A DNA stretch of 44,163 nucleotides from Pseudomonadota bacterium (GCA_018814305.1 JAHJAA010000007.1:1-44163); one strand, 5' to 3'; positions 7,118 through 43,373 are shown, numbered from the stretch's first letter. The notes: generated from the letters alone by a model not told the origin. Numbers and translations are program-made.

Positions 7118-10377
<3,260 letters not shown>

Positions 10378-10431
10378 GGCCAAGCTCAATAAGCTTGACG
10401 CCAGAGGATTAAGAAAAAAAGGAAGAAATTA

Positions 10432-11928: not shown

Positions 11929-11956
11929 GGCCTTTAACTTTAGGTGGAGAGATTAA

Positions 11957-13183: not shown

Positions 13184-15047
13184 TAAAGAAACCTACCTTG
13201 GTGATGTGCAAGATGTTAATGGAACCACCGTCAGTATTTCATTATCGAAGGAATCTTTAACGGGATTTGTATACATTGACGGCCAGGGATATCGTGTAGG
13301 CCAAATAGGTAGTTTTATAAGAATACCTATAGGTTTTAATGACCTGTTCGGTATTATCAGTCAAGTTGGCGCAAGCGCTATTCCTGAAAAACAAGCTGAC
13401 AACCAAGTTCATGGTAATAGGTGGATGACAATCCAGTTGATAGGAGAAGGCCCAAGAAACGGAACATTCCAAAGAGGACTTTCACAGTACCCAACCATTG
13501 GCGACGAAGTTCATTTAGTATCAGAAAAAGAACTAAAAAATATTTATGGGCAACCGGACAAACCATATTTTGTAAGGCTTGGGCACATATCAAACGCAGA
13601 TTCAATTCCGGCATTAATCGATGTAAATAAGCTAATCACAAGACATTCCGCTGTAGTCGGTACAACCGGTTCCGGAAAATCTACCACAGTGGCAAGCATC
13701 ATGAATGCGCTGTCTGATAGTGAGATGTATCCTTCTTCAAGAATTATCCTGCTAGATCTCCACGGAGAATACGGACAAGCGTTACAAGAGAAGGCACATA
13801 TTTATAAAATAAAAGGAGATGCATTTTCAAAGTTAAAAGAGCAAGAATTGCACATACCCTTTTGGGCATTAAATTTCGACGAGTTATGCGAGATTAGCTT
13901 CGGCGAGTTTAATAATGAAAAAGATAGAAATATAGTAATGGAGAGAGTGCAAAAATACAAAATTGAATCCTTGGCAAAACACCCACGAAAAGGAGTAACT
14001 GCCGACACACTTAGTGTTGACTCGCCAATTCCGTTCAGTATCCACCATTTGTGGCATGAGTTATTCATTGAAGTGTTTGGAACTTACTATAAAGGGAGAG
14101 CCGGTAAACCTATTGATAATCTGGCTTACGAAACGGACACCAATGGGAATGAGTTAAAAGGAATTCCAGAAAAAGGTATCCCTCCTATTTTTAAAAATAT
14201 CGTAACCGAAGCAGGTGAAGAAAAAATCAATTACTTGCCAGGTTCATTAAATGTAGGAAAGCAAGTTCTATTGTTGGGAACCAAACTAAGAATTCCTAGG
14301 TATGATTTTATTTTGAAGCCCGGTGATTTGACACCTGACGTTGAAGGAAAAGTCGTACAAGACTTAGATTTCCTTCTTAAGAATTGGATAGGTAGCAATA
14401 GGCCCGTTACGATACTAGATCTGTCTGGAATACCTGCCGATATTTTACAAACAACGATAGGTGCACTTCTTAGATTGCTGTATGAAGCTTTGTTTTGGGC
14501 TAGAAATTTGTCTCAAGGTGGTAGGCATAGGCCTCTGCTAGTAGTCATGGAAGAAGCGCATATTTATTTAAATGATGATTTAAAAGGCATGGCGTCAAAG
14601 ATAGTTCAGCGCATTGTTAAAGAGGGGCGAAAATATGGGATTGGTGGCATGATCGTGAGCCAGAGACCCTCAGAAATTAACCCTACAATACTTTCGCAAT
14701 GTGGCACATTCTTCGCTCTCAGGTTAACTAACGGTTCGGATAGAAAGCATATCACATCTGCTTTGTCAGATAACCTGGACGGCCTAACGGGCATGTTGCC
14801 CATATTAAGAACGGGCGAAGCAATAATTTTGGGCGAAGCTGTCAAATTGCCAATGCGGACAACAATAGAAGCGCCACCGAAGAATAGAAGGCCAGATAGT
14901 CAAGATCCCATTGTTTATGATGAGATCCCGTCAGACAAATCGCAAAACCCTGGTGGATGGGGTGTTAAGATGGAAGCGGAACCTAACTACGAAGAACTTG
15001 TTGAAGCCTGGAGAGCACAGAATCCGAAAATAGATAGAGTAAAATAA
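13176..15047 (+). CDS. HerA-family ATPase/DNA translocase of a SIR2-HerA pair
   Basis: The 623-residue protein starts with a small beta-rich HAS-barrel-like domain (residues about 1-130). The FtsK/HerA ATPase core follows: Walker A VVGTTGSGKST near residue 160, the LLDLHGEYG strand, and Walker B LLVVMEEAHIYL near residue 455. The conserved VSQRPSEINPTILSQCGT segment and the arginine-rich end follow. Such proteins form hexameric rings. In SIR2-HerA systems the ring assembles with SIR2, and both NAD+ consumption and DNA cleavage have been reported. All motifs look intact. It is followed 13 bases later by the small KTSC gene. Confidence 0.9.
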   Translation: MTNKETYLGDVQDVNGTTVSISLSKESLTGFVYIDGQGYRVGQIGSFIRIPIGFNDLFGIISQVGASAIPEKQADNQVHGNRWMTIQLIGEGPRNGTFQRGLSQYPTIGDEVHLVSEKELKNIYGQPDKPYFVRLGHISNADSIPALIDVNKLITRHSAVVGTTGSGKSTTVASIMNALSDSEMYPSSRIILLDLHGEYGQALQEKAHIYKIKGDAFSKLKEQELHIPFWALNFDELCEISFGEFNNEKDRNIVMERVQKYKIESLAKHPRKGVTADTLSVDSPIPFSIHHLWHELFIEVFGTYYKGRAGKPIDNLAYETDTNGNELKGIPEKGIPPIFKNIVTEAGEEKINYLPGSLNVGKQVLLLGTKLRIPRYDFILKPGDLTPDVEGKVVQDLDFLLKNWIGSNRPVTILDLSGIPADILQTTIGALLRLLYEALFWARNLSQGGRHRPLLVVMEEAHIYLNDDLKGMASKIVQRIVKEGRKYGIGGMIVSQRPSEINPTILSQCGTFFALRLTNGSDRKHITSALSDNLDGLTGMLPILRTGEAIILGEAVKLPMRTTIEAPPKNRRPDSQDPIVYDEIPSDKSQNPGGWGVKMEAEPNYEELVEAWRAQNPKIDRVK

Positions 15048-15060
15048 TCAGGAGGTAATT

Positions 15061-15270
15061 ATGGAAATGACGAGTGTGGATTCTAGTAATGTCGAGTCAG
15101 TCGGTTACGATGAGGATAGTTCAACACTACAGATTGAATTCAAAAATGGTTCGACGTACCAATACTTCGATGTTCCCGAAGATGTGTTTATCGGATTACG
15201 TGATGCAGATTCCGTTGGCAGATATTTAGCGGCAAGGATTAAGGGGACATATCGATACTCGAGAGTATAG
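15061..15270 (+). CDS. KTSC-domain small protein
   Basis: This 69-residue protein spans the whole KTSC domain (named from lysyl-tRNA synthetase C-termini): it begins with SSNVESVGYDEDSSTLQIEF and continues with YQYFDVPEDVF and a C-terminal GTYRYSRV. It has a strong AGGAGG ribosome binding site (15051-15056) and follows herA by 13 bases, so it should be translated from the same message. The biochemical role of isolated KTSC proteins is not known. The position suggests an accessory or sensor role in the SIR2-HerA module, but this is inference. Confidence 0.85.
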   Translation: MEMTSVDSSNVESVGYDEDSSTLQIEFKNGSTYQYFDVPEDVFIGLRDADSVGRYLAARIKGTYRYSRV

Positions 15271-15372
15271 ATAAATAAAAGAGGGAATAAACTAGAGTGA
15301 TCTCTCTTACTCTAGCCCTAGGTTTAATCTCTAGCTTTTTCCCGCAAGTAAATGAACCAAATAGAGAAGTTG

Positions 15373-15404
15373 ATACCCCGTCAGTTTGCTACGGGGGTAT
15401 TTTA
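15373..15404 (+). terminator. Rho-independent terminator after the SIR2-HerA-KTSC operon
   Basis: The arms ATACCCCGT (15373-15381) and ACGGGGGTAT (15391-15400) pair with one bulged base around a 9-base loop and are followed by TTT and an A-rich stretch. This separates the SIR2-HerA operon from the STAND operon starting at 15497. Confidence 0.65.
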
Positions 15405-15496
15405 AAAAATAATTATCAGGCGGCTTTAACTCGACTTTTCGCTGCTTACACATCAACGCATTAACCGGGCATTGTGCCTATCAAACGGAGTTATTA

Positions 15497-18214
15497 ATGT
15501 CAGATGCTTTTAGGCAGTCGGTAATCAGTACTCTCATAAACGAAGTTTCCCTACTCACTGGTGGGCAATTTGAGCAATTTGGTTACAGAGTGATGGAAAT
15601 TGTATTTCCAGCGCAGTGGGTCGAGCGTGGTACTACAGTCGAAGGTGCGCCGCGTGGATACACTGTTGACACCTCGACGAATGGTGCCGCGCTCGTTGCG
15701 GAAATGAGCTCAGAAAGTGATTATTTCCATGGCGATATGGGTAAGCCAACACGGGACTTGCACCACTCGATCATCTTGCACCCAGATGTGAAACGTATCT
15801 GGCTTCTATCGTCCCGAGAAGCAACGGCAGGTGAAACGACGAAATGCGCTAACTTGGAAACAGAGTTCATAAAAGAGCACAAGTTATTGACGCAAGTCGA
15901 GATACTAGATGCCCGAAAAATCGCTGTGCACATCTTCAACAACATAGAAACTGAACGATTTGTCAGCTCTTTAACTACTTATTTGCCGAGCCTCGGAAGA
16001 TTGGCAGACGAAAATGCGTTCAGCCACCGAATACCGATTTATTCTGGTTACCAGCAACGTCTGGAATTAGAGGACATTGTAATTGCTCGACTTACAGATT
16101 CCTCCTGTGTCGTCGTTAGTGGTATCAGTGGAATAGGAAAAAGCGCGCTCGTTGCACACGTTGCGGAGAGACTTCGTTCAGATTTCGATACGATCATCTG
16201 GTATGACGCCCGTAATCTAGGAAATGTTGCGGAACTCTCTGATGTTGACATACGGCGAATTGGCACCAGGCACAACATTACCAGTTTACTCCTTCGGCAC
16301 AAGTGCCTTCTCATTCTCGACGATGCAGTACTTTCTAAGGAAAATATCGCCCAAATAGATTGTGGGGAATCAAAAGTGATTCTCACGTGCCAAGTAAGTT
16401 CTGAGCCAAATTCCATCGAGGTTGGTGAGTTTGATTTCGATTCGGCACGGATTTTATTGCAAGCAGGTGTAACAATTCCTTGCTCAGACGAGGTCTTCCA
16501 ACGCGTGTTTTCGAGCATTGGAGGCTATCCCCTTCTTTTAAGTGCGTTAAACAGGGTAGCCCAAGATGATGGGTGGGAGGCCGTGGATGATTGCTGTGAA
16601 GATGCTACAAGTTCAATTGAAGATGAGCGCCACAACAAGATTTGTCAGAGGATTCTCATGCGGCACCGGGAGTCGTTGGCTTTAGAGTTAGAGTTCGTCA
16701 ATTGGTGTGGCGGCTCGTGTTTCGACTCCGAACTAGCTGCCGTATGCGTTTCACCCAGGGCCGTGAAGAATCTCCAAAAGCGTGCGTTCTTAGCTGCGAC
16801 AACATCTGGCGACATCCGAGTACATGACGTTGTTTATAAGTCTATTCTCGCTGTTATTGATGTGACTGAACATCGTGATACAACCTTTCGTGACAAGCTG
16901 GACAATTTCATCTGCTCGGAATGCGAAAAGGAGAGGCATGTCCTTAGTCGCATCGTGACCCTCCATGCACCGTTAGTCAAAAGACTGGTGGGCGTGGATT
17001 CACGTCCGTCATTTATTTACTCATTGGCTCTCGCCAGGATGAATGACACACCGGTCGACCTACTAGGCGACCCAGTCGCCGCCGCAAAATCTTTAGTTGC
17101 ACTTGATCACTGGGATGGGCGGGAAATCGAAATCCGCGCTGTCATTGAGGTCGTCGAAGCCCTGTATACACTAACATCTGCCAACTACGGGGTGGAGGCT
17201 GCCAAAGCATCTTTAAATGAGAATATCGCAGCATTGGATCTTCTTCTCCACAGCCCTTTGGCTAAAAATGAGTTACTGAGGGATCTCAAACATCATTATG
17301 CCAAAATGCTAATTCGCCTCGAATATTTTTCAGAGGCTGAGACTGAATTTCGATCTATACTCTCCGAATACCCAATGTTTGCTGCTGGGAGGCTTCAGCT
17401 CGCCAGACTTCTAGGGCAACGGGATAAAAAGACCGCTCTTGACGAGTGTGGGGAAATCATCAACCAACACCTATGTAAACAAGGGACAGTATCCCCTCCT
17501 ATTCTACTCGAAACTCTGCGATTATTGGCCAACTTTGGTTCGGCTAACGACGTGAGGCCGCATGAAGGACTAATAATTTCATGCCTAGAGGATGCCCGTG
17601 AATTCGATAAGGCGCTAACATTACGCCTCATTGCCTCAGTTGCCCAAAAGACTTGGTACAAGATGCCGAAGCTCGTATCGCGCATGTTCGATGCGATAGA
17701 GTGGCGTGATGCTGTCCCGGCATCGGATTCCGAACGTTTTGATTGGGCACAGGCCCACAAAGCGGCGGCCAAGGTGGCTGCCGTCGGTGATTCGCGAAGA
17801 CGTGATTTTCTCATAGCAGCTGACGATACGTACAAGAGCATCGTGGCTCCACGTAGCTATAACAGGGTACAGCATGCAGAGGCGCTCATTTTACTCAACA
17901 GATTTGAAGAGGCGAACTCTGTCCTAGATCTTGTGCCTGATAGTGATCATGAATCATTCTGGTGGCATCGGAAGTCCCAAGCTCTGTTTGGATTACAGCA
18001 CAATGATACTGCGCTGGAGGCAATCAACAATGCGCTACAGCTTTTGAAGGGTAATGCTTACAAGGCTGCTTTTCTTAAAGTCCGCCATGATATCAGAGAG
18101 TCCCTATCTGATGCAGGAGCAAGAGATGATCTCTTGGCAGCGATCAATACCCTGCCTGAAGGTGATAAATATAGAAAGGAGTTAGAGTCAAAGCTGGCGG
18201 ATTTGACCAAATGA
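15497..18214 (+). CDS. STAND-type NTPase with restriction-like N-terminus and TPR-like C-terminus
   Basis: The 905-residue protein has three parts. Residues about 1-170 look like a degenerate restriction-fold domain (RGYTVDTSTNGAALVAEMSS, then GKPTRDLHH and a DARKIA segment). Residues about 195-450 are a STAND/NB-ARC-like NTPase with Walker A VSGISGIGKSALVAHV near residue 205 and Walker B CLLILDDAV near residue 270. The rest is helical and TPR-like (AETEFRSILSEYPMFAAGRLQLARLL), the usual ligand-sensing arm. This resembles Avs-type or other NLR-like immune proteins, though I cannot assign a named family. The start is supported by GGAG at 15486-15489. The TGA stop overlaps the next ATG (ATGA at 18211). 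Confidence 0.75.
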   Translation: MSDAFRQSVISTLINEVSLLTGGQFEQFGYRVMEIVFPAQWVERGTTVEGAPRGYTVDTSTNGAALVAEMSSESDYFHGDMGKPTRDLHHSIILHPDVKRIWLLSSREATAGETTKCANLETEFIKEHKLLTQVEILDARKIAVHIFNNIETERFVSSLTTYLPSLGRLADENAFSHRIPIYSGYQQRLELEDIVIARLTDSSCVVVSGISGIGKSALVAHVAERLRSDFDTIIWYDARNLGNVAELSDVDIRRIGTRHNITSLLLRHKCLLILDDAVLSKENIAQIDCGESKVILTCQVSSEPNSIEVGEFDFDSARILLQAGVTIPCSDEVFQRVFSSIGGYPLLLSALNRVAQDDGWEAVDDCCEDATSSIEDERHNKICQRILMRHRESLALELEFVNWCGGSCFDSELAAVCVSPRAVKNLQKRAFLAATTSGDIRVHDVVYKSILAVIDVTEHRDTTFRDKLDNFICSECEKERHVLSRIVTLHAPLVKRLVGVDSRPSFIYSLALARMNDTPVDLLGDPVAAAKSLVALDHWDGREIEIRAVIEVVEALYTLTSANYGVEAAKASLNENIAALDLLLHSPLAKNELLRDLKHHYAKMLIRLEYFSEAETEFRSILSEYPMFAAGRLQLARLLGQRDKKTALDECGEIINQHLCKQGTVSPPILLETLRLLANFGSANDVRPHEGLIISCLEDAREFDKALTLRLIASVAQKTWYKMPKLVSRMFDAIEWRDAVPASDSERFDWAQAHKAAAKVAAVGDSRRRDFLIAADDTYKSIVAPRSYNRVQHAEALILLNRFEEANSVLDLVPDSDHESFWWHRKSQALFGLQHNDTALEAINNALQLLKGNAYKAAFLKVRHDIRESLSDAGARDDLLAAINTLPEGDKYRKELESKLADLTK

Positions 18215-18801
18215 ACCAAGACAAAATCTTAAAAAAACTCATTACAAAATATTGTGGCAAACAAAAGGCTGATGAGTATTTTTCTTTTAAATTGGAAGGT
18301 AAGCAAGTCCTCATTGATACTGCTCAAGAGTTATTAGAAAGTCTACCACCATCTTTTGGTGCCTGTGCTCTAATAAGTGCGACGTGGGCAGGTTTTTTAC
18401 GGGATAAATATTCTGTCCCTGCAATTGTCGTAGCAGGTGATCTTGAAATAGAAGATAAAAAGATTTTTAAATGTCGGAAAAATCTCCCTGTACCCAAAAA
18501 AACCGGAAAACTCGTGCTCGGCAAATGGGATGGCCATTGTTGGATAGAGGTTGATGGAATAATTGGTGATTTATCCATTTTTAGAACAGCATACGCGGTC
18601 AAGGGCCCAAGTATACTTAAGGAATATATCGTTTCAAATTTTGGTATAGGCCGTGGCGCATTCCTGTGTCCAAAAAACGAATTTCCAACAGACTTAAAAT
18701 ATGTCCCTAAATACGTGCTAGATCGCAAGCAAATTAATGGCTTGATATCAGGCATGATGTATCAACTTGAACATGGGAACAACATCGGACAAGTTAAATG
18801 A
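18211..18801 (+). CDS. Putative transglutaminase/papain-like cysteine peptidase fold protein
   Basis: I do not recognise a named family. The 196-residue protein shows what looks like a Cys-His-Asp triad in the order used by transglutaminase-like and NlpC/P60-type peptidases: Cys52 in FGACALISATW, His109 in WDGHCWIEVDG and Asp120 in IIGDLSIFRT. The GHCWIEV-GIIGDLS layout is typical of the two strands carrying the His and Asp in that fold. There is no signal peptide or membrane segment, so it should act in the cytoplasm. It overlaps both neighbours by 4 bases. Proteases controlled by STAND NTPases are known in bacterial immunity, so an effector role is plausible. Confidence 0.6.
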   Translation: MNQDKILKKLITKYCGKQKADEYFSFKLEGKQVLIDTAQELLESLPPSFGACALISATWAGFLRDKYSVPAIVVAGDLEIEDKKIFKCRKNLPVPKKTGKLVLGKWDGHCWIEVDGIIGDLSIFRTAYAVKGPSILKEYIVSNFGIGRGAFLCPKNEFPTDLKYVPKYVLDRKQINGLISGMMYQLEHGNNIGQVK

Positions 18802-19496
18802 ATATATATTCTGAAGTCGTTGATGGCTTAGCGGGATGGCTAAACTTTGAGATGCGCGCAAAGAGAGACAACCTTTTTTCGGAAGCATATCTCGCTAACC
18901 CACTAGGGCAACTATTGAATGCGTCCTTCCCAGGGCGTATCTTAACAGAAATGCAGCATCCCATTCTTGCAGATAAAATGCAAGGTCCTGGTAAGAGACC
19001 TCAGGTAGATTTTGTTGTCACAGGCAATTATGGTAAATGGGATCTTGCTATTGAGACTAAATGGATCTCAAAATCGCCTACTTTGCATCAGGACATAATT
19101 AAAGATGTAATTAGACTGGATCTGCTGGTCCCAACTTACGCTCGTGAAGGGATTTTAATAGTCGCTGGAAACAAAAGAGATTTCTCCGATTTTTTTGAAG
19201 ACAATAAATTCAAAAAACACCCTGATCAGCCAAGCAGTAATCCTCTTTTACCAATTGAGAACCATACCGCCGGTTCAGTACGATTCTTGCCTACATCGGC
19301 ATTCCGGAAAGATATATATAATAAAGCACTCAAACCATTCCGGGGAGTTGAAATTTCCCAAATTATCCGCCTTCAAAGAAGTGGCCCATTTCCAAGAAAC
19401 CCGAATAACGAGCATTATGAAGTTTATTTATGGAAAATCAGAACAGACCGATTAAAGGAGGCTTCTTTCCTCCCAGAAGAACATTTTGACATTTAA
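18798..19496 (+). CDS. Putative PD-(D/E)XK-like nuclease, third gene of the STAND operon
   Basis: The 232-residue protein is not from a family I can name. Residues 66-90 read KRPQVDFVV ... WDLAIETKW, which gives the Asp71 ... Glu86-x-Lys88 pattern of a restriction-endonuclease-fold active site, preceded by a possible helix-strand Glu51. The rest is a mix of charged helices, with a proline-rich end. Its start overlaps the preceding stop (ATGA at 18798), so it belongs to the same operon. A nuclease effector or a partner of the degenerate nuclease domain of the STAND protein is the simplest idea. The function is inferred from motifs only. Confidence 0.6.
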   Translation: MNIYSEVVDGLAGWLNFEMRAKRDNLFSEAYLANPLGQLLNASFPGRILTEMQHPILADKMQGPGKRPQVDFVVTGNYGKWDLAIETKWISKSPTLHQDIIKDVIRLDLLVPTYAREGILIVAGNKRDFSDFFEDNKFKKHPDQPSSNPLLPIENHTAGSVRFLPTSAFRKDIYNKALKPFRGVEISQIIRLQRSGPFPRNPNNEHYEVYLWKIRTDRLKEASFLPEEHFDI

Positions 19497-19957: not shown

Positions 19958-19985
19958 TTGACAAGCAGAAAATTTTCAGTATAAT
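19958..19985 (+). promoter_or_regulatory. Strong sigma-70-type promoter reading into the TGA-rich block
   Basis: TTGACA at 19958-19963 and TATAAT at 19980-19985 are both perfect consensus hexamers, 16 bases apart. The expected start point is near 19992, directly at the tRNA T-arm-like fragment and about 40 bases before the first ORF of the block. Confidence 0.7.
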
Positions 19986-19990: not shown

Positions 19991-20009
19991 CACGGTTCGA
20001 ATCCGGGCC
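19991..20009 (+). other. tRNA T-arm-like fragment
   Basis: CGGTTCGAATCCGG contains the invariant TTCGAAT loop of a tRNA T-arm with a short stem (CGG/CCG). No D-arm, anticodon arm or matching acceptor strand can be found upstream, where the promoter lies instead. It is probably the 3' end of a tRNA gene left as an attachment-site remnant. A deleted tRNA gene directly behind a tRNA-like promoter is the alternative. Confidence 0.4.
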
Positions 20010-20034
20010 AATTATTTTCTAACCAAATCTCCTC

Positions 20035-20292
20035 ATGCCTACACCTACCTACATGACATCGATTCAGGTCGATGTATTCGAGTCCTGAAACAATTCGAAA
20101 ACACCGGGATCTTCGGCTGCTTCCACCCATCGCACCAAGGTCTATTACGACCTTGTTGAACTGACTCCCGATCAAATCAAAGTAATTGTAAAAATGACAG
20201 CAATCTTGAGTCGTGGAATTTACGACTCCCACCTGCCCCAGTCTCTGGAAGAACAGGTAACCGGAGAGTTGAATATAAATTGCCCTGAGTAA
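20035..20292 (+). CDS. Small protein, unknown; one in-frame TGA (read as Gly)
   Basis: Read with TGA as glycine, this frame runs 85 residues from ATG 20035 to TAA 20290-20292, with one TGA at 20086-20088 in an ESGNNSKTPG context. The later half (KVYYDLVELTPDQIKVIVKM and SLEEQVTGELN) looks like ordinary helical protein. In the standard code it would be cut to 17 residues. It lies just behind the strong promoter at 19958 and is followed by the hairpin at 20313. No Shine-Dalgarno sequence is visible. I know no family. It is the weakest of the four TGA-containing genes because only one TGA is present. Confidence 0.45.
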
Positions 20293-20312
20293 TGGCCTTC
20301 AGTAGCCAAAAC

Positions 20313-20335
20313 TGGCTGTTTCTCAGAAACAGCCA
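20313..20335. terminator. Perfect 10-bp hairpin, possible terminator
   Basis: TGGCTGTTTC (20313-20322) and GAAACAGCCA (20326-20335) form a perfect stem with a 3-base loop, 20 bases after the TAA at 20290. There is no T-run on the plus strand, but a short one follows on the minus strand. It may act as a transcription or processing signal. Confidence 0.4.
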
Positions 20336-20382
20336 TAAAACAACGAAAACCAAAACAAAAATACCCCTTAACACCATATAGT

Positions 20383-21756
20383 ATGAAGAGATCAAAAACA
20401 GAATCTATACTGACCCACCTGACTCATTTTCTTAAATGGCTCTATCGCCCATTTCAGATTTATTCTCTGCACACCTTTTATTTCAGGATGAGAAAAATAC
20501 TCCCGCTCCACGCCTTTAAAAGACACGGATATATCGTCGCCTCTTCCGGTAGTGGGAAGAGTGAATTCATAAAAGTTCTGCTGTATCGTGAACTGATCAA
20601 AAAGAACCCGAATAACAGCATTATTGTCATTGACCCACATTGAGACCTTGTAGAAGAAATAGCCAGACTCAAGCCGATGAAAAAACGTCGGATTTCCAAC
20701 CGCGTGGTCTATATCGATCCTTCTCTTCACCCAGGATACAGCCCCAGCATCAATCCCTTTGAAATTGATGACCGTAGTGAGAAAACCATCGCCCTGATGA
20801 CTCAGGAACTGAGGAGCATTTTCGAAATTCTGCTGCAGGATGCCAGTACAACAAACCAGATGAGCGCGATTTTGAGCCCGTGCATCGCCACCCTGCTCAG
20901 AAGGCCAGACAGCGATTTTTCCGATCTGCAAAGGTTTATGGATGACAACAACAATCAGGACTTGGTGGCACTTGGTGCACAGTCTCCCAATCCCCAGCAT
21001 CGTACCCTGTTCCAGACTCGCTTCTACAACAAAATGTATTCCGCGACAAAGCACGGACTTTATACCCGTATGCAGGTGCTGCTGAACGAACCTGTTTTTC
21101 AGAACCTGATATCCAATACGACAAGCCTAAAATTGAAGCAGCTCATTAACCAGAAGAAAATCATCCTGTTCAAACTGTCCTTGTGAGAGTCTGGAAGTGA
21201 CAGTGTGCAATCCTACGGAAGATTTATTGTGGGCCTCCTGCGCATTTTGGCATTCCAGAGGAGCAGTATTCCCAAGGAATTCAGGGTGCCGACCTACCTG
21301 TTTATCGATGAATTCCAAAACTTTATTTCAGCTGATATTGAAAAAGCGCTTACCCAACTGAGGAAATATGGCCTTCATTTGGTTTTGGCCAATCAGTATA
21401 TCGGCCAGGTGGCATCCCCTGCATTGCAAAAAGCCCTCTTCTCAGCTGGGATCCTGATAGCCGGGAAAAATGAACGTAACAGCTTACGTGCGATCAGCAG
21501 GGAACTGGATGTCCCGATTCCTCTTTTGATGAACATGTCCGTAGGAGAATTCCTGGTGAGCACTCACCACCGGAAGCCATTGCTGATCAAGTCTCCCAAG
21601 CTGCTGCTGGATGGAAATTATTGTGTATCAAGCGAGGAGTGGCAAGAAATCAAAGCCAGAAATCTCCGCCAGTACTACTGTAAGCTCAGACCTTGGGTAA
21701 GCAACACCAGTAACTCCAGGGTCAGTAGATGACAAAAACCTGATACACTCCCCTAA
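20383..21756 (+). CDS. TraG/TraD/HerA-type conjugation ATPase with three in-frame TGA codons (UGA = Gly)
   Basis: In the standard code this is broken into three ORFs (20383-20643, 20677-21186, 21205-21732), all in one frame and separated only by TGA. Read with TGA as glycine it gives 457 residues ending at TAA 21754-21756. TGAs are at 20641, 21184 and 21730. Motifs run on across them: Walker A VASSGSGKSEF near residue 55, then VIDPH-TGA-DLVEEI, where the family has DPHGDL or DPKGDL, then FKLSL-TGA-ESGSDS, then Walker B-like TYLFIDEFQNF near residue 307 and LVLANQYIGQ. No frameshift and no internal TAA or TAG occur. It would be a DNA-transfer ATPase. No Shine-Dalgarno sequence precedes the ATG. 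Confidence 0.8.
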
Positions 21757-21791
21757 TCGCCTAACCCACCTATTTCTTAACCCTTCGTCCT

Positions 21792-22625
21792 ATGAATATC
21801 TCAGTCAACCAATTTATTATTTTGATGGCCCTGGCCAGATTCAAATTTCTGACATCTTCCCAGTTGAAACTCATATTGGGTTGCAAAAGCCTGAGTACGG
21901 TTAACAGTGCACTTCGTGGATTGAAATGATTTCGTTACCCATTGGTAAAAAGTATGGATTTCTGAGTTGCCCCTTGAAAATGAAGACTGGCACCAATCCA
22001 TCACTTGACCAAGACATGAAAGGATCAATTGCTGGAAGGAACCTCACTCACCCTGGAGGAGATTCAAAAGCCATCCTGAAGCGCCGTATTTTTCCAGAAT
22101 GATTATTTTCATCGTGTTTCCACTGTCCGGTTTGCCGTTTTGTTTCAGAAATGGCTGGCCGTCAATAATTATGGATTGGTTGAAATGGACCTCTACTTTA
22201 ACAGCAGGTACTTTGACGGCCAATTTCATACAGCCACCAGAACCTGGTCGCATGGCCGCGTTGTCGAGCCTGATGCCACCGCTATTTACAGCGCCAAAGG
22301 CGTCTACCACACCATTTTGTTCGAGCAACATAACGGTAGAGATGCCAAACGTGCACTGAAACAAATTAAGCAACACTGCCTTTGATTACTGAACGAGCGA
22401 TATCTGGTCCGTTTCACCCAGCGTGACGATATCCGCATCATTTATCTTTTTGAGAACCATCGCTGCATGAATGTGGTTATGAAATGAATGATGGTGAATC
22501 CGTTGATGAGATCTATTCAACACCTTTTCCTGTTCAAAGATGAAGATGAACTGCAACTGAGCTTTGCAGACGGATGGCATCATCCCGATGAAACAATCGT
22601 TTCATTCCTGCCCGGAGCCAAATAG
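21792..22625 (+). CDS. Replication-relaxation family protein with eight in-frame TGA codons (UGA = Gly)
   Basis: No standard-code ORF longer than about 90 codons exists here, yet one frame from ATG 21792 to TAG 22623-22625 gives a coherent 277-residue protein if TGA is glycine. TGAs lie at 21927, 21963, 21975, 21981, 22017, 22077, 22383 and 22485. The N-terminus is a winged helix (ALARFKFLTSSQLKLILG, then VNSALRGLK), followed by HHLTKT-TGA-KDQLLEG, where the family has a conserved LTxxG. The NDYFHRVSTVRFAV, VEPDATAIYSAKG and HTILFEQHNGRDAKRA segments match the C-terminal domain of replication-relaxation proteins of mobilisable elements. There is no internal TAA or TAG and no frameshift. Confidence 0.8.
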
Positions 22626-22713
22626 TAACCTATCCCCTCCGATTTAGCTGGACCCCGCTGTTCTCGACATAGGGTCGAGGATGGCGCCTGTCCAACTAAA
22701 AAGGAGTCTACTG

Positions 22714-23040
22714 ATGAGTACATTGCTTACAAAAGAATTGGTCAAAATGTTTGAGAATTACCCTCTCTATGCTCAGGACGGTGAGTCAGATCCTTTGGTG
22801 GTCGCCAAATTGTTTGATGCATATGGTTCGGGCACCTGGTATCTGACCGAATATAACCCGGCAGAACAGGTTGCGTTTGGCTATGTCACAGGCTTGGCGT
22901 ATGACGAATGGGGCTATGTCTCACTGAAAGAGCTCGAGGAAATTCGACATCCATTCTTTAAGGTAAACCGTATCGAACGAGACCTCTATTTTGTTCAACG
23001 GCGTTTCTCTGCACTCGGTCTCAAGGAGGCCACTCGGTAG
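22714..23040 (+). CDS. DUF2958 domain protein
   Basis: I chose ATG 22714 because AAGGAG lies at 22701-22706, giving 108 residues that end with TAG. It matches the DUF2958 family of small plasmid and integrative-element proteins: NYPLYAQDGESDPLVVAKLFDAYGSGTWYLTEYNP, then FGYVTGLAYDEWGYVSLKEL and the IERDLYF end (segments of one continuous stretch). It contains no TGA at all, so it is compatible with either code, and its stop is TAG. It is the only gene of the block with a clear Shine-Dalgarno sequence. The function of the family is unknown. A strong hairpin follows the stop. Confidence 0.8.
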   Translation: MSTLLTKELVKMFENYPLYAQDGESDPLVVAKLFDAYGSGTWYLTEYNPAEQVAFGYVTGLAYDEWGYVSLKELEEIRHPFFKVNRIERDLYFVQRRFSALGLKEATR

Positions 23041-23047
23041 AGAGGAT

Positions 23048-23074
23048 ATCAGCCAGGGAAACCTGGCTGATTTT
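23048..23074 (+). terminator. Terminator-like hairpin after the DUF2958 gene
   Basis: ATCAGCCAGG (23048-23057) and CCTGGCTGAT (23062-23071) form a perfect 10-bp stem with a GAAA tetraloop followed by TTT. It starts 7 bases after the TAG stop. Confidence 0.7.
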
Positions 23075-23456
23075 GCGAGTTTTGCATGTCGGATCTAACT
23101 CCTCAGCAAATCATCGCAATACGGAACTAATCGTCCATCGGTGCCTACGAAACGTCCCTGCCAACTTCCACGAAAAGACAACATCAATCCCCGGCAATTG
23201 TACGGTCCCCTTTCAAGGCAGTTTCTGCTTTTGGCTGCCGCCACAGCCGAACAGCTCTTGAAACCTCAACCATTAAAATTTTTCGGAAAAATATTCTCCT
23301 CCCCAAAAATCATCATTTTTTCTGGAAGACATTCATCCCAGTGTTTGCCATCAGCTCCCCTATTCCAATTTTTTTCAGATAAATTTGAGTGGCCTCGGAG
23401 CACCGTGGTCAATACCTGGGATTGATCGTCCCGATTTATTTTTTAATTTTTTGTTT
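23075..23456. other. Intergenic; no gene recognised
   Basis: Open frames at 23073-23261 and 23141-23425 overlap in different frames, lack ribosome binding sites and stay implausible whether or not TGA is read as Gly. The stretch is pyrimidine-rich toward its right end. It may contain the promoter of the next small gene, but I see no clear consensus. Confidence 0.4.
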
Positions 23457-23825
23457 ATGAACAATGAATTGCACAAATACGCTGAGTCGTATGAGGCTGA
23501 ACTCCTAGCCTATGAACAACTTGAACCAGTTGATTTTATCAAGGAGTACATCGATTCAAATTACACTGGTGACAGTGATGACGAGGATATGATGATCCAC
23601 GAATACTTCGATTGTTTAGAAGTTCAATATTACAAGAATGAACAATCAGATTATGACTATTTCGAAATCACTCTTGGCTACGGGTGACCGAATATCTATC
23701 TGAGTGTCAACAGCAGATGGAAAAGCGTTGAGTACATCATCGCCTGGTGAGGAGATAACTTTACAAAGGATCTCTCACACCTCTATGACACAGTCGTGCA
23801 GCTTTATGCATTGGACTGTTATTAA
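23457..23825 (+). CDS. Small acidic GGPN-motif plasmid protein with two in-frame TGA codons (UGA = Gly)
   Basis: In the standard code the frame stops after 76 residues. Read with TGA as glycine it runs 122 residues from ATG 23457 to TAA 23823-23825. The TGAs at 23685 and 23748 fall in FEITLGYG-TGA-PNIYL and YIIAW-TGA-GDNFT. Small proteins of conjugative elements with a C-terminal GGPN...W(G)GD pattern have glycine at both places. The N-terminus is acidic and helical (residues 1-50). The GTGATTA-free ending and the strong terminator 7 bases downstream support the extended reading. The function is unknown. Confidence 0.75.
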
Positions 23826-23832
23826 TATACTG

Positions 23833-23859
23833 CCCCGGCTTCGGCTGGGGTTTTTTTTT
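23833..23859 (+). terminator. Strong rho-independent terminator
   Basis: CCCCGGC (23833-23839), a TTCG tetraloop and GCTGGGG (23844-23850) are followed by nine T residues. It starts 7 bases after the TAA of the extended GGPN-motif protein. If TGA 23685 were the true stop, it would lie almost 150 bases away, so its place favours the recoded reading. Confidence 0.9.
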
Positions 23860-24111
23860 GTGATGTTAAAAATTGAACGTAAATGAGCTCCATTTCGCTC
23901 TTCATTTTATTCAGAGAGTGAGAAATTTCTTTTATCATTCTTGATGACCACACTTGAAAATCCCCCCAAATTTGATTTAATAGCTACTCAGGGACGATAC
24001 TGAGGCAAGATTGCATGTTCGTAACGAACTTGCGAACCTTGCCAGGGCCAGCCCTAGAACCCGGACTGCACCAGCCGAGCTGGGCAATCGAAAAAGGTCG
24101 GAGATTTTGAG
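23860..24111. other. Intergenic between recoded block and mobilisation operon
   Basis: This AT-rich stretch holds no gene that I can support. It contains the inverted repeats of the putative transfer origin at 24004-24043, and it marks the place where TGA usage changes from sense codon on the left to stop codon on the right. Confidence 0.5.
24004..24043 (+). other. oriT: Putative origin of transfer (oriT): nested inverted repeats
   Basis: Outer arms GGCAAG (24004-24009) and CTTGCC (24038-24043) enclose inner arms GCATGTTCG (24013-24021) and CGAACTTGC (24025-24033), which pair with one mismatch around TAA. It lies 68 bases upstream of the mobC-like gene and its relaxase. Nested repeats next to mobC are where MOBP origins are usually found. 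The nick site cannot be determined by eye. Confidence 0.5.
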
Positions 24112-24492
24112 ATGGATGACAACAGGTCTACCTATCAAAAGTCGTACCGTAAGCGGCATGCCGAAAGGCACCGACGGATCAGCATCTCTGTGTCCAATGC
24201 CGAGTACTCTGCCCTGGAACATATGGCACGCCGAGAGAACACCAAGGTTACTACCCTGGTCCGGGACTATGCCTTCGCCGGACTTTCCAGAACTCTTTCC
24301 GTGCCAAACGAACTGAAAGGCGAACTCCAGCAACTGAGTTTCCTGGTCCGGAATATTGCCAACAATGTGAATCAAGCCGCCCACTACTCGCATACACTCC
24401 GACAGGTAGCCGACGAAAATGGCTTGCTGCAACAGATCAAAAAACTGGAGGAAACTATTCATGCCTTCGTCCAAGAGAGGATGAAGCCATGA
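24112..24492 (+). CDS. mobC: MobC-like ribbon-helix-helix mobilisation accessory protein
   Basis: The 126-residue protein has a basic N-terminus and a ribbon-helix-helix-like segment (RRISISVSNAEYSALEHMA, residues about 20-40). The MobC signature LVRNIANNVNQAAH follows near residue 84, then a coiled C-terminus. MobC proteins bind oriT and help the relaxase open the DNA. GGAG at 24100-24103 precedes the ATG. Its TGA stop overlaps the relaxase ATG (ATGA, 24489-24492), so here TGA clearly acts as stop, unlike in the block just upstream. Confidence 0.8.
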   Translation: MDDNRSTYQKSYRKRHAERHRRISISVSNAEYSALEHMARRENTKVTTLVRDYAFAGLSRTLSVPNELKGELQQLSFLVRNIANNVNQAAHYSHTLRQVADENGLLQQIKKLEETIHAFVQERMKP

Positions 24493-25445
24493 TTATCAAA
24501 TCCATGTCCCGCAAGGAGTCCTCCTTCAATCAGCTGATCGACTACATGGGGTCTGGGAGAGCAGATGAGCGCTTCACTATCCTTCACAATATCTTTAGCC
24601 GGAACCCGGATCAAATCAAGGATGAATTTTACCAAAATGCTGGGTTCCTCCATCGCCGGACAGGCGGCAACTACATGTATCACGAAGTAATCTCTATAAC
24701 CCGGAGTGATCGACTGAGACTTGACGAGCAGAAGGAGAAATTACGGCAGATTGCAATGGATTACATCCGTGACCGTGCCGAAAATAACCTGGCCTATGGT
24801 GCCCTGCACGATGACCATGACAATAATATCCATTTTCATCTGATTATCAGTGCCAATGAGGTTTATTCCCGCAACCGACACCGACTCTCCAAGTATCGGT
24901 TTGACCAGATCAAGAAGGATTTGGAAAAACGAGTACTGGAATGCTATCCAGAGCTGCAGCAAAAAGAACTGATCAATCGCTCAGCAGGAGAACGCATATC
25001 AAACAAAGGTTCCGAGCTGAAGCGGCGAACCGGAAAAACCCCTCAACGTGATTTGGTCAGGGAAAAGGTCAAGACCATTTTTGAACAGGTTTCGACCAGA
25101 GAGGAGTTCCTTGAAAGTTTTGAGAAGGCTGGTTTGAATTTTTATATCCGGGGGAAAGCGCCTGGGGTGATCGATCTGCAGACCGGGCGGAAATTTCGCA
25201 TTAAAACACTAGGATTTCTCTCCCAGTATGAAAACATATCCCAGAAAATTGAAATGAACCTGATGCAGAAGTATGGACATACTGGCAATAAAAAAGCCCA
25301 AATGCATCAGGAAGAGAAATCGACAAAGAAGTGCTCGAAAATAACAAAAGAGGAACGAAACGACAAACGGAAGCAAGAGAAAATGGCCCGTCATCGAGCT
25401 CGTTCGCAGCAATCTGCAGGGGAAAAAGATGGCCACAAACGATGA
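24489..25445 (+). CDS. mobA: MOBP-type relaxase (MobA/VirD2-like)
   Basis: The 318-residue protein shows relaxase motifs: an N-terminal tyrosine in NQLIDYMGSG (residue about 19), the probable nicking residue, and the metal-binding histidine motif HDDHDNNIHFHLIIS near residue 108. The C-terminal third is very basic and Lys/Arg-rich. It would nick oriT and lead the strand through transfer. It overlaps the next gene by 17 bases. There is no large primase or helicase domain, so this is a small mobilisation relaxase. The TGA stop is genuine, because reading through would add only two residues before TAG and the overlap with virD4 is normal. Confidence 0.85.
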   Translation: MIIKSMSRKESSFNQLIDYMGSGRADERFTILHNIFSRNPDQIKDEFYQNAGFLHRRTGGNYMYHEVISITRSDRLRLDEQKEKLRQIAMDYIRDRAENNLAYGALHDDHDNNIHFHLIISANEVYSRNRHRLSKYRFDQIKKDLEKRVLECYPELQQKELINRSAGERISNKGSELKRRTGKTPQRDLVREKVKTIFEQVSTREEFLESFEKAGLNFYIRGKAPGVIDLQTGRKFRIKTLGFLSQYENISQKIEMNLMQKYGHTGNKKAQMHQEEKSTKKCSKITKEERNDKRKQEKMARHRARSQQSAGEKDGHKR

Positions 25446-26973
25446 TTGGAATAGTTGGTCAGGAAAAAAACGCCCCTCTTCAAAGAGCGTTCCACTTGGC
25501 GGATCACTGTTGTCAGATACCATGAAGGGAATCTTCAAAGGCGGCTTGTACCTTCTTGGCCGGAAACTCAACCGCTCAAAAGAAGGAGCAACCTTCGACT
25601 CAGAGTCTGATTATTCAAGCTATCTGAATTCGAGCAATAATGGACTGCTTCTGGATGGCGACAAACTGCGCCTTTCAGAAAGAGACAGCATACAGAATGT
25701 CTGTGTGATGGCCCGCATCGGAGCTGGAAAAACGTCTCGGTACATCATCCCGAATGTACTTGGTAGAGCCCGATCTAAATGCTCAATTGTAGTGAATGAC
25801 CCGAAGGGAGAAGTGTATCAAAACACCTCTGAGCATATGCGCAGGAGTGGATTCAAGGTTGTGGCCATCAACCCGGAAAATCTTGACGGAACCAGTCACT
25901 TCAATCCCCTTTCTGAAGCTAGGAGTGACATCGAGATAGAGCAGATTGCCGAAATTCTAGTGCGCAGTGGCACGCCAACGCATGGTGGGAAGGATGACTT
26001 CTGGATACAGGGATCTATTCGCTTTGCCAATCTATTCATCAAGTGCCTAAAGAATGCAGGTCGGACTAACCAAGGCTACTACAACCTCCATAACCTTTAT
26101 TACCTGTTCCAGAATTTTGGAGAAGATGGGAGGGACCTTGATAAATTCATGGTCAGGTATGCGAAAAATCCAGACGACCCACTCGACGATACCCTCTGGC
26201 ATGAGTGGCAGGGTGTGCTGACCGGCAACAAGGAGGGGGTTCAAAGTTTTATCCTGAATGGTATTACCGCTCTTAAAAGTTTATCCAACCGGAATCTTGC
26301 CGAGCTCACCTCTTATTCCGATATCAGCCTTGAGGATATTCGCAAGGAAAAGACTATCATATACATGATCACCCCTGCCCAGCATGCTGAATACTACAGT
26401 TTCCTCACCAGTCTGTTTTTTCGGAGTGTTTTCAATGCCTGCATGCGACAACTGCCAGACAAGCGGACGCTACCAGTCTACGTCCTCTACGATGAATTCG
26501 GGCACTCTACAATTCCCAATTTTGTTTCGACAGCGAACACCATCAGGGGCTACGGCGTTTCAATATCCATAATCCTGCAAAGCATAAGTCAGCTCAGGGC
26601 CAGGTATGGTGCGGAATACGCCAACTCGATCCAAGGTGGCTTTAATACCTATCTGACGTACGCAGGTGCCGATCCTGTGACTGCCGATTTTTTTGAGAAA
26701 GTTGTTGGTCGAGTTCGGCTGCGGCAAAAAGAAAATTACTTCGACCATGTAGAGCAATATCAAGAGTACAACCTGATGAATGCAGGAGAAGTCAGGACAA
26801 TAGATTCAGATGAAGCGCTGGTCGTTTCCGGCAACCGACAACCCATCAAGTTGAAAACTCTTCCCTATTTTCAAAATTGGTCCTTGATGCGCTGCGCGAA
26901 CAAAGGGCCAGCGCACCTGGCTCCCCCTGAATCGGCTGGTAAGAGGCTGCAGTATGTTGGGCTAGATAAATGA
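25429..26973 (+). CDS. virD4: VirD4/TraG-family type IV coupling protein
   Basis: The 514-residue protein has the coupling-protein core: Walker A ARIGAGKTSRYIIPNVL near residue 97, Walker B-like VVNDPKGEVYQ near residue 121, the VLYDEFGH motif near residue 350 and ILQSISQLRARYG near residue 383. It feeds the relaxase-DNA complex to a type IV channel. The usual N-terminal transmembrane anchor is missing. The two small membrane proteins directly downstream could supply it, which is an inference. No channel genes (VirB4, VirB6 and so on) are in the window, so the element is probably mobilisable rather than self-transmissible. Confidence 0.9.
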   Translation: MATNDDWNSWSGKKRPSSKSVPLGGSLLSDTMKGIFKGGLYLLGRKLNRSKEGATFDSESDYSSYLNSSNNGLLLDGDKLRLSERDSIQNVCVMARIGAGKTSRYIIPNVLGRARSKCSIVVNDPKGEVYQNTSEHMRRSGFKVVAINPENLDGTSHFNPLSEARSDIEIEQIAEILVRSGTPTHGGKDDFWIQGSIRFANLFIKCLKNAGRTNQGYYNLHNLYYLFQNFGEDGRDLDKFMVRYAKNPDDPLDDTLWHEWQGVLTGNKEGVQSFILNGITALKSLSNRNLAELTSYSDISLEDIRKEKTIIYMITPAQHAEYYSFLTSLFFRSVFNACMRQLPDKRTLPVYVLYDEFGHSTIPNFVSTANTIRGYGVSISIILQSISQLRARYGAEYANSIQGGFNTYLTYAGADPVTADFFEKVVGRVRLRQKENYFDHVEQYQEYNLMNAGEVRTIDSDEALVVSGNRQPIKLKTLPYFQNWSLMRCANKGPAHLAPPESAGKRLQYVGLDK

Positions 26974-26998
26974 ATCTCAGGCAATGGCAGGATAGAAA

Positions 26999-27277
26999 AT
27001 GTATTTGCATGAAATAGCCATTTTTGCTGCGATTGGATACCTGAATGGATACCTGTTTCGTGATATTGGGCCGTTCAAAATAATCGCTCTATTTTTTATC
27101 CTGCCAGCAAGTCTCGATATTCTGATTCAGTTGGATCACGTAAAAATCGCCACTATTCCTTTTTTATTGATGGCTATTCTTGGATTTCTTGGACCAGTAA
27201 AAACTCGACAGCGCCTGGGCAAACTCGCCAGTGATACTCAGTATCATGTTGGATACTTCATGAGACGCAGGCGATGA
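26999..27277 (+). CDS. Small membrane protein of the mobilisation operon
   Basis: The 92-residue protein is strongly hydrophobic, with two or three probable membrane helices (residues about 4-18, 28-45 and 48-68), and ends in a basic RRRR tail. It starts 25 bases after virD4 and its TGA overlaps the next ATG (ATGA at 27274). I know no family. Its place suggests a membrane anchor for the soluble coupling protein or for the relaxosome. Confidence 0.65.
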   Translation: MYLHEIAIFAAIGYLNGYLFRDIGPFKIIALFFILPASLDILIQLDHVKIATIPFLLMAILGFLGPVKTRQRLGKLASDTQYHVGYFMRRRR

Positions 27278-27522
27278 ACGAGACAGAACAAATTTTTACT
27301 CATATTTTCGCCTTTGGCTTAGGGTATGCCATTGCGTTCTCGGTGAAAAACGTGGGGAGAATTTACAAGGAGTGGGGGCTTCTTATCAGCGGTCTTCTTT
27401 TTCCGTCAATTGCCATCGGATTGATTCTTGCTGCCGCAATGATAGCAGATAAGAAAAGTCTGATTTTAAGCTCGGTATTTGGTGCAGGTTTCCTTATCAG
27501 AATGTTGAAGTCACGCTCATGA
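27274..27522 (+). CDS. Small membrane protein of the mobilisation operon
   Basis: The 82-residue protein has about two membrane helices (residues 10-24 and 36-58: LLISGLLFPSIAIGLILAAA) and a short basic end. It overlaps both neighbours through ATGA junctions, so the three membrane-protein genes are one translational unit. No family is recognised, and it may be a diverged relative of the preceding protein. Confidence 0.6.
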   Translation: MNETEQIFTHIFAFGLGYAIAFSVKNVGRIYKEWGLLISGLLFPSIAIGLILAAAMIADKKSLILSSVFGAGFLIRMLKSRS

Positions 27523-28274
27523 AAAGCCTTTCATCGTACATATTTATTGCTGTCATTATGTCCAGCGTGGGCTACATGGCAACCAGAACAAAGAATTTCA
27601 ATATCTGGAAGATGGGGCTGTTAGCATTTATAGCAGCTCCAATTATCATGTCTCTGGAAAATTCTGAAACAGCAGCCTGGGTGGCGGTAACTGCGTTTTT
27701 TGCCGGATATCTTTTGCCTCATGCACATATCTTGGATGGTTTCTTCGGTACAATTAGTGATTTGGTTAATAGTGTCCGCTATAGGGATGATCGTAGACGC
27801 ATCAATTCACAGAAAGAAGAGTTAAGGAGAAGAGAGGAAGAACTGCGCCGCCAAGAGGAAGAACTGGAACGACTCCGCCGGGCTTACGAAGAGGCAATGC
27901 GAAACAGCCAACAGTCTCAACAACATTTTGAAGAAAAAAATAGTCAGGGCGGGCGACAATATGAAAAAGGGGGTAGGGGAAAGCATGAGGATTTTGGCAG
28001 GAAAAAATCCGGTGACAACACGAATTCTAGCTCGAATACAAGGAGACAACCCGACCCAGAATCGAAAAGAACAATCCACCTTAAGGCATTGGGATTCGAT
28101 CCAAACAAGCAATACTCGGAGGATGAAATAAAAATCAGGAAGAGGATGCTGTTGCAAAAGTATCACCCCGACAAACACTACCGAAAGAGCGCAGAAGAGC
28201 TCCACAAAGTGAACGAAAAAACGCAGGAAATTATTCAGGCGGCTTACTGGCTGGAGAGACACCCTGACGAGTAA
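27519..28274 (+). CDS. Membrane-anchored J-domain protein with coiled coil
   Basis: The 251-residue protein has three parts. Two or three membrane helices lie in residues about 5-75. A long, highly charged coiled coil rich in R and E follows at residues about 90-135. After a low-complexity linker comes a C-terminal J-domain-like segment (residues about 185-245) with the diagnostic HPD in LLQKYHPDKHY. J-domains recruit and stimulate DnaK/Hsp70. Fused to membrane helices in a mobilisation operon, it may help remodel the relaxosome or transfer protein, which is inference. It ends with TAA. Confidence 0.75.
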   Translation: MKSLSSYIFIAVIMSSVGYMATRTKNFNIWKMGLLAFIAAPIIMSLENSETAAWVAVTAFFAGYLLPHAHILDGFFGTISDLVNSVRYRDDRRRINSQKEELRRREEELRRQEEELERLRRAYEEAMRNSQQSQQHFEEKNSQGGRQYEKGGRGKHEDFGRKKSGDNTNSSSNTRRQPDPESKRTIHLKALGFDPNKQYSEDEIKIRKRMLLQKYHPDKHYRKSAEELHKVNEKTQEIIQAAYWLERHPDE

Positions 28275-28296: not shown

Positions 28297-28662
28297 ATGG
28301 AAACAGGGCATATTTACACACCAGAAAACGACACCTATCAAGCGAGACTCTCAGCACTCCAGGAGGTCCTTCGTGCACGTGAGCAGGTTAAACGTAGCCG
28401 TTTACACGCTGATTCGCCCGAGTGGTCAAATGCATTAGGTAGTCTTGAAGAGATTGAACAAGCCGAAGAGGTCATTGATGCCAGTTTCTCTATGGCAGCA
28501 CAGGATTTCAATAGAGAGGAACTCCAGCAGGCAAGGAGTGACAAAGCACTGACCGACAACCAATTGACAGAAATTATCAACGCTGTTCGCACCAAAGAGA
28601 TCGACGCGAAACGAAATGACAACAGTTCTGATGAAAAATCCAATTCGAATACACGCTCATGA
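28297..28662 (+). CDS. Unknown helical protein of the mobilisation operon
   Basis: The 121-residue protein is predicted to be almost entirely helical and rich in Glu, Gln and Ser (for example SLEEIEQAEEVIDASFSMAAQDF). GGAAGG at 28286-28291 precedes the ATG. Its TGA overlaps the next ATG (ATGA at 28659). I recognise no family or motif. Confidence 0.6.
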   Translation: METGHIYTPENDTYQARLSALQEVLRAREQVKRSRLHADSPEWSNALGSLEEIEQAEEVIDASFSMAAQDFNREELQQARSDKALTDNQLTEIINAVRTKEIDAKRNDNSSDEKSNSNTRS

Positions 28663-29093
28663 AAAATCAGCCATTCTCAGACAACATGAAAGAGATCGCC
28701 GACAGCATGGGCATTTCTTTGTACCAGCGGTTCAGCCTCAATGAAGCATCTCTCTTTCTGCGTTGTTCAACAGAGGACCTTTTGAAGATCACGAAATCAC
28801 ACACAATCTCCTTTATCCAGGTAACCCGGGATCAGGTCGATTTCTTTGGTTTCCAACTCCTGGATTATTTGCTGAATAACGTAGTAACCAAAGCCCAGCC
28901 AGCTCCTTCTAAATCAAAGACCAACCCAGAGCGAATTGTTCGGGCAAAAGAACTCCAGGAATTGACTGGATTGTCACGAACAACTATCTGGAGAATGGAA
29001 CGGGACGGCAAATTCCCCTCGCGAGTCCCCCTTTCAGGGAGCAGCGTAGGATGGCGATATACTGAGCTTATGGATTGGATGAGGACGAGATAA
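28659..29093 (+). CDS. AlpA-like helix-turn-helix regulator
   Basis: The 144-residue protein ends in a MerR/AlpA-type helix-turn-helix (residues about 95-140: RAKELQELTGLSRTTIWRME, then DGKFPSRV and a GWRYTELMDWM end), as in phage and integrative-element regulators. The N-terminal half has a second helix-turn-helix-like part (FSLNEASLFLRCSTEDLLK). As last gene of the mobilisation operon it may regulate transfer or excision. No integrase gene is seen nearby. Confidence 0.75.
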   Translation: MKNQPFSDNMKEIADSMGISLYQRFSLNEASLFLRCSTEDLLKITKSHTISFIQVTRDQVDFFGFQLLDYLLNNVVTKAQPAPSKSKTNPERIVRAKELQELTGLSRTTIWRMERDGKFPSRVPLSGSSVGWRYTELMDWMRTR

Positions 29094-38662: not shown

Positions 38663-38696
38663 TTCTGTTGTCCAGTTCATCAGTTTCGAAGAATTT

Positions 38697-43358: not shown

Positions 43359-43373
43359 GGGGAAAATGTTTAA

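Follow-up and report, generated by a model that had tools for sequence, protein, structure and literature searches.

How can genes that make sense only if UGA is a sense codon persist in a bacterium with the standard genetic code? The question is raised by contig JAHJAA010000007.1 of the Pseudomonadota assembly GCA_018814305.1 (positions 1-44163; this whole stretch of 44,163 nucleotides is called the window below), where a first-pass annotation, made from the sequence alone, had noticed four open reading frames (ORFs) running through TGA codons at 20035-23825 and had proposed that UGA encodes glycine in them. Genetic code 25, in which UGA is glycine, is that of the Absconditabacteria (SR1) and Gracilibacteria (BD1-5). 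The comparisons described here support the proposal, and place the ORFs in a mobile, plasmid-like element that seems built for two kinds of cell unable to read each other's genes.

UGA as glycine in a module of mobile genes

The four frames are as first described: they hold 14 in-frame TGA codons (1, 3, 8 and 2) without TAA, TAG or frameshift, end at TAA, TAA, TAG and TAA, and contain the motifs DPH-TGA-DL, LTKT-TGA-KDQLL, GYG-TGA-PN and AW-TGA-GD. With gene starts called by rule, the fourth keeps its TGA count and stop, but an ATG at 23457 makes a better start for it than 23385. Together with a fifth, truncated ORF at the start of the contig, the recoded genes are:

1-378, + strand: recoded ORF beside the replication initiator (Rep tail or its downstream ORF), 2 in-frame TGA; truncated by the contig start, with a break of frame near 130-150
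20035-20292, + strand: P0004, 85 amino acids (aa) in code-25 translation, function unassigned, 1 TGA, stop TAA
20383-21756, + strand: VirD4/HerA-like DNA-translocating ATPase (DUF87/T4SS-DNA_transf; Pfam PF01935 1.4e-12, PF02534 4.6e-11), 3 TGA, stop TAA
21792-22625, + strand: replication-relaxation protein, a predicted nickase (weak match to Pfam PF13814), 8 TGA, stop TAG
23457-23825, + strand: P0003, 122 aa, function unassigned (confidence of its predicted structure too low for use), 2 TGA, stop TAA

The openness of these frames under code 25 is real but by itself weak evidence: the window has 24 frames, each 200 codons or longer, with three or more TGA and no TAA or TAG, two of the recoded genes among them and the others mostly shadow or read-through frames. 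For this reason relatives were sought, and the decisive evidence for recoding is comparative. An ATPase profile scan of 84,980 prokaryote species led to a second copy (locus L046, contig JADGAU010000010.1) in the Gammaproteobacteria metagenome-assembled genome (MAG) nPCRbin5, genome G258. The order on that contig is chromosomal genes, tRNA-Asn, Rep, P0004, ATPase, nickase, DUF2958, RadC, P0003, MobC, MobA, TraG, and the window is collinear with it from ~19996 to 28178; the chromosomal genes, presumably uvrB and aspartate aminotransferase (recognised by eye), are in standard code. In-frame TGA codons number three in the G258 Rep, eight in its ATPase (about 67-68% identical to that of the window), seven in its nickase (45%) and two in each of the small proteins, P0003 (64%, one TGA shared) and P0004 (57%, one TGA shared and one opposite GGA). 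Window positions 154-339 match a recoded ORF downstream of the G258 Rep (2 TGA; 47% identity over 62 aa by tblastn in code 25), with one TGA in common. The feature is larger than 20035-23825, including this related segment and continuing through the mobilisation (mob) genes to ~28.2 kb.

A third copy, L014 (JAIUNZ010000007.1, Bacteroidetes MAG FLAVO1), is distant from the other two (~34% identity). Here the ATPase-nickase pair has 7 and 3 TGA codons, a serine recombinase (3-1634, - strand) 15, and a D12 DNA methyltransferase 7, its GGG motif being written TGA-TGA-TGA; the neighbouring ORFs have none in 1732 codons. Host assignment for G258 and L014 rests on MAG titles and contig content.

A codon-by-codon alignment of the window and G258 copies shows that UGA means glycine in the module genes, inside a standard-code genome: GGN stands opposite 12 of the 23 TGA codons that are not shared, against a background of ~3% (P ~2e-10), so that the TGA columns are enriched for glycine. 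The exchange sites include the Walker A and DPHGD glycines of the ATPase, as well as three glycines in the nickase GxxPGxGRL stretch. Glycine is kept at 22 of 33 TGA sites (67%) and at 40 of 59 GGN sites (68%). The recoded genes have saturated or nearly saturated synonymous divergence, and their ratio of nonsynonymous to synonymous divergence (dN/dS), like that of the mob genes, is low: 0.15 in P0004 and under 0.09-0.18 in the rest. UGA was therefore read as glycine through most of the time since the copies parted. Close homologues in a standard-code genome with the same TGAs had been named beforehand as a sign of shared decay. Shared TGAs do exist, but the TGA/GGN exchanges and dN/dS below 0.2 argue that they are not shared decay. 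Of the stop codons reachable by single mutations from these codons, only 18% are TGA, so that 14 TGA out of 14 would be improbable under neutral decay (P ~4e-11).

Profile scores add to this. When the residue at TGA was replaced by other amino acids and the product rescored against Pfam profiles, the D12 methyltransferase of the third copy scored 85 bits with glycine and 62-74 with the others, and glycine was best for DUF87 in both ATPases (39.9 vs 31-33 and 48.6 vs 43-47). In the window ATPase, glycine nearly ties with serine on the T4SS profile; the resolvase profile does not tell the residues apart, and the recombinase zinc ribbon slightly favours W, R or S. The share of glycine written as TGA is 0.30 and 0.35 here, vs 0.27-0.81 in 13 code-25 genomes (recognised by coding density, four of them also by their tRNA).

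Two codes within one element

Attribution of the recoded block to "a recoded lineage or its mobile element" was broadly right but not the whole picture: the recoded genes form a single module in an otherwise standard-coded element. The block at 20035-23825 is not uniform either, since between its four recoded genes lies a DUF2958 gene of standard style. The other features of the element in the window are:

693-19496, + strand: standard-code cargo with AbiE, type I restriction-modification (hsdM, S, R), SIR2-HerA, an NB-ARC-type ATPase and others (Pfam, PADLOC and NCBIfam matches), many of the genes ending in TGA
19958-19985, + strand: promoter of the recoded module, TTGACA-16 nt-TATAAT, read in the sequence and conserved at the corresponding position of the second copy
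22714-23040, + strand: DUF2958 gene (Pfam PF11171 3e-16 for ORF 22681-23037), standard style, with Shine-Dalgarno AAGGAG, 0 TGA and stop TAG
23047-23075, + strand: terminator-like hairpin ATCAGCCAGGGAAACCTGGCTGATTTT, kept in G258 after DUF2958/RadC
23255-23456, no strand: conserved non-coding stretch upstream of P0003, 85% DNA identity over 61 nt
24112-24492, + strand: MobC/NikA-like mobilisation protein, standard code (NikA-like 1.3e-4 and MobC 0.0064, both below the Pfam cut-off); its stop TGA overlaps the MobA start (ATGA)
24489-25445, + strand: MobA/VirD2-like relaxase, standard code, stop TGA (Pfam PF03432 6e-8), 61-65% identical to the G258 copy
25429-26973, + strand: TraG/VirD4 coupling protein, standard code, stop TGA (Pfam PF02534 8e-55), 70% identical to the G258 copy
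26999-28274, + strand: small ORFs and a third ORF, standard code, syntenic with G258, with tblastn matches to ~28178; the ORF at 27519-28274 looks J-domain-like by eye and has no Pfam match

At the level of genes, the split between two codes is evident in three kinds of signal. The first is the use of TGA itself: the recoded genes have 14 in-frame TGA codons in the window and 22 in G258 and none of nine ends in TGA, while DUF2958, RadC and the mob genes have no TGA in 1066 and 1232 codons of the two copies, MobC having a TGA stop in both. The second is initiation: a Shine-Dalgarno sequence precedes none of nine recoded genes and seven of the ten others (P 0.003), and G at positions -25 to -4 amounts to 4% vs 23% (P 6e-9), the recoded leaders being T-rich. 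In the 13 code-25 genomes (266 genes) the corresponding values are 3% with Shine-Dalgarno and 10% G, with TTTATT-like runs ~20 nt upstream, and SR1 RAAC1 is counted among organisms in which Shine-Dalgarno sequences are scarce and the conserved CCUCC core is missing (PMC10783764). The third is arginine: in the window, CGA and CGG make up 4 of 52 arginine codons in the module and 40 of 84 in its neighbours (P 5e-7), at similar GC content of third codon positions (GC3), which within each element is near that of the neighbouring genes. In code-25 genomes CGG is rare and some CGA is used; reassignment of CGA/CGG to tryptophan has been described in Absconditabacteria, and of CGG also in some Gracilibacteria (PMC8629427).

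The junctions from the module through DUF2958, MobC, MobA and TraG, and conserved intergenic DNA, are found in two independent assemblies from different hosts. With synonymous divergence between the copies saturated, the association of module and mob genes is, by this measure, an old one. The stretch at 23255-23456 has long runs identical to G258, while the genes have only ~69% DNA identity, and is a possible origin or regulatory site. The cargo at 693-19496 lies in the window between the Rep-side ORF and the rest of the module; in G258 there is none between these two landmarks.

A proposed shuttle between codes and its alternatives

Why should one element be written in two codes? The best explanation, and one that we think probable, is that it is a two-code shuttle. 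In its full form, for which our confidence is reasonable rather than high, this would be a natural shuttle between organisms with different codes, with two mobilisation/maintenance modules, each using the codon assignments and start-site conventions of one type of host, so that the code decides which of them works where. MobC, MobA, TraG, DUF2958 and the defence cargo would be expressed in ordinary standard-code carriers; the Rep-side ORF, P0004, the ATPase, the replication-relaxation protein and P0003 would be written for Absconditabacteria or Gracilibacteria, that is, for a cell that reads UGA as glycine, does without Shine-Dalgarno sequences and avoids CGR codons. A standard-code host should make only UGA-truncated products from the module, and its replication/nickase set would be kept silent; a code-25 host would translate the module completely, and its products could then see to replication, processing and export of the element. 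The genetic code would then be a host-specific switch, and the element would move between standard-code bacteria and code-25 cells near or on them. From these patterns we infer that the element enters code-25 cells and shuttles repeatedly, and what each module does.

The element carries a relaxase and a coupling protein, as integrative mobilisable elements do. The nickase has a winged helix and a predicted nickase/restriction-endonuclease-like fold (AlphaFold pLDDT 82), and a Foldseek search with the model gave weak matches to FokI and the nickase N.BspD6I (best E 1e-3); together with the ATPase, it could make up a mobilisation set additional to MobC-MobA-TraG. Proteomic data have validated UGA as glycine in a BD1-5 bacterium whose community included sulfur-oxidising Gammaproteobacteria (PMC4032931).

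Several observations weigh against a shuttle. A code-25 genome carrying the element was not found in these searches: the nickase profile matched none of 49 genomes of the code-25 order, matches to the ATPase in 288 genomes of the wider class were distant only, and standard code is used by the nearest outside relatives besides L014 (Magnetospirillum, a Microcystis phage, plasmids). No integrase was seen in the window or the G258 contig, both of which end inside the element. The region beside Rep meets a TAG after 303 aa in G258 and a break of frame at the contig start in the window, so that the integrated copies may be impaired. In the G258 copy, which is low in GC, CGA/CGG usage does not set the module apart (6/51 vs 13/71), and the module GC3 of ~0.5 in the window is high for code-25 lineages; their genomes are reported to reach 0.53 GC (PMC8629427). 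Nearly all of the evidence comes from MAGs or draft assemblies in which the ends of the element are missing.

One possibility, which we consider improbable, is that UGA is suppressed in standard-code carriers: a suppressor tRNA for UGA, charged with glycine, would be made at times by the element or its host, and the recoded genes would be expressed at those times alone, as in alternatively coded phages. Prophages that switch code in standard-code hosts have been described (discussed in PMC10746230), the module GC3 follows that of its standard-code neighbours, as if ageing in these hosts, and a tRNA could sit in the unseen ends of the element. The window genome, G000, has release factor 2 (prfB, 515 bits; the result covers this genome only), and TGA is the main stop in its sampled genes. 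A tRNA-Gly(UCA) pattern with matches in all four code-25 genomes, and with a complete tRNA in both of the two checked, found none in G000 or, as far as assembled, in G258. The window and the second copy have no UCA tRNA either, nor is there one among the 79 pattern matches from the two genomes, and ARAGORN and Rfam found no suppressor tRNA in the sequenced parts of the element, the Rfam scan giving only the tRNA-Asn in G258 and two chance matches below cut-offs. One candidate for an attachment site or a hidden UCA tRNA, a tRNA-like tail at window 19995-20010, was rejected: it directly follows the conserved promoter and lacks a cloverleaf. Suppression would also leave the missing Shine-Dalgarno sequences, code-25-like leaders and CGR avoidance of the same genes unexplained.

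Just as doubtful, in our estimation, is a one-way relic, in which standard-code mobile elements captured a code-25 plasmid long ago and its recoded genes are now passengers with residual conservation. This would fit with the failure to find a recoded donor, the interruption of the Rep-side stretch in both copies, and the expectation that the recoded genes should not be fully translatable in these hosts. It fits less well with the ATPase, nickase, P0003 and P0004: they have no TAA, TAG or frameshift, and their dN/dS stays below ~0.2 at synonymous divergence that is saturated or close to it, which means that for most of the time since the two copies parted they were translated with UGA as glycine, linked to the mob genes.

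Assembly or binning chimerism, joining a code-25 plasmid to a standard-code contig, has the draft nature of the sequences in its favour but is very unlikely: the same module-DUF2958-mob junctions occur in both assemblies, and in G258 the element adjoins tRNA-Asn in a contig of chromosomal genes. Ordinary pseudogenes with mutational TGA, or UGA as another amino acid such as tryptophan, are hardly credible. In their favour, eleven TGA sites stand opposite non-glycine residues in the other copy; against them are the TGA-only stops, the GGN exchanges, the GGN-like behaviour of TGA and the profile scores, in which glycine clearly beats W, R, S and C for the D12 methyltransferase and also exceeds them for both DUF87 domains.

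Related systems and neighbouring sequences

The shuttle proposed here shares features with several known systems. Like code-25 genomes, the recoded module has UGA as glycine, a similar TGA share of glycine, few Shine-Dalgarno sequences, T-rich, G-poor leaders and little CGG; unlike them, it comprises only some genes of one element, in UGA-stop hosts without detectable tRNA-Gly(UCA). Alternatively coded phages and prophages with suppressor tRNAs also have some genes that are readable in a standard-code host only if a stop codon becomes sense, but here no suppressor tRNA was found, no phage structural genes were recognised, and the recoded genes also bear the initiation and codon style of another lineage. 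Phage structural or lysis genes were absent among Pfam, NCBIfam, PADLOC and PHROGs matches of the scanned genes; a weak terminase-like match of the ATPase was set aside as due to its ATPase fold. The code-11-compatible phages of Gracilibacteria and Absconditabacteria (PMC10746230) are likewise proposed to cross between hosts of different code; they do so by avoiding in-frame TGA, one text serving both hosts, whereas here there would be one module per host.

The pair of ATPase and replication-relaxation protein is known from Rhizobiaceae plasmids (pAtCFBP6624, pSfHH103a2) and Microcystis phage Mwe-JY31, the same two-gene module at 26-32% identity, but in these it is standard-coded. The closest plasmid relatives of the mob genes are MobA-TraG of a Sulfitobacter sp. 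S223 plasmid (34-38% identity), which has no recoded module in the stretch examined. Close relatives of the nickase were found in none of the viral contigs, genome contigs or plasmids searched, viral scans with the ATPase and MobA pairs gave no match, and further copies were lacking in the host class/order (258 genomes), the G258 order (24) and a draw of the G258 class (369).

Differences in genetic code are regarded as an obstacle to the exchange of genes. If the shuttle is real, there would be regular DNA traffic across this barrier, probably between code-25 episymbionts or predators and ordinary bacteria nearby, and to our knowledge it would be the first plasmid-like element to use the genetic code to switch genes according to host. 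The finding makes cross-code exchange testable, and offers a marker for partners of the uncultured Gracilibacteria and Absconditabacteria; it is also a warning that standard gene callers fragment such recoded genes.

Some further observations concern the relatives. Should the L014 recombinase be readable in code-25 cells alone, these may be where integration is controlled. L096, in genome G514 (2.7 Mb), is a further ATPase-nickase pair, which lacks TGA; the bin is unusually large and was sampled from the class that contains Gracilibacteria, and the pair may be contamination. At L052 (6001-6921), an ATPase relative with 2 in-frame TGA lies in the Patescibacteria MAG UR.bin204, possibly a code-25 genome. 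In G258 a search for attachment repeats where the element adjoins tRNA-Asn found none.

Beyond the collinear region the window also contains the following gene:

28659-29093, + strand: AlpA-like regulator (Pfam PF05930 1.5e-16)

It is followed at 29336-36755 by a low-GC three-gene stretch (829, 1323 and 324 aa) without recognised defence families, the 324-aa protein having a weak response-regulator match. Two 300-nt direct copies, 86% identical (38685-38984 and 42324-42623), flank a histidine kinase gene near a tRNA-Met at 38523 and an ISL3 transposase. At 42894-43979, a DUF4172 ORF is followed by an AbiEii-like fragment, additional to the AbiE pair at 693-2452.

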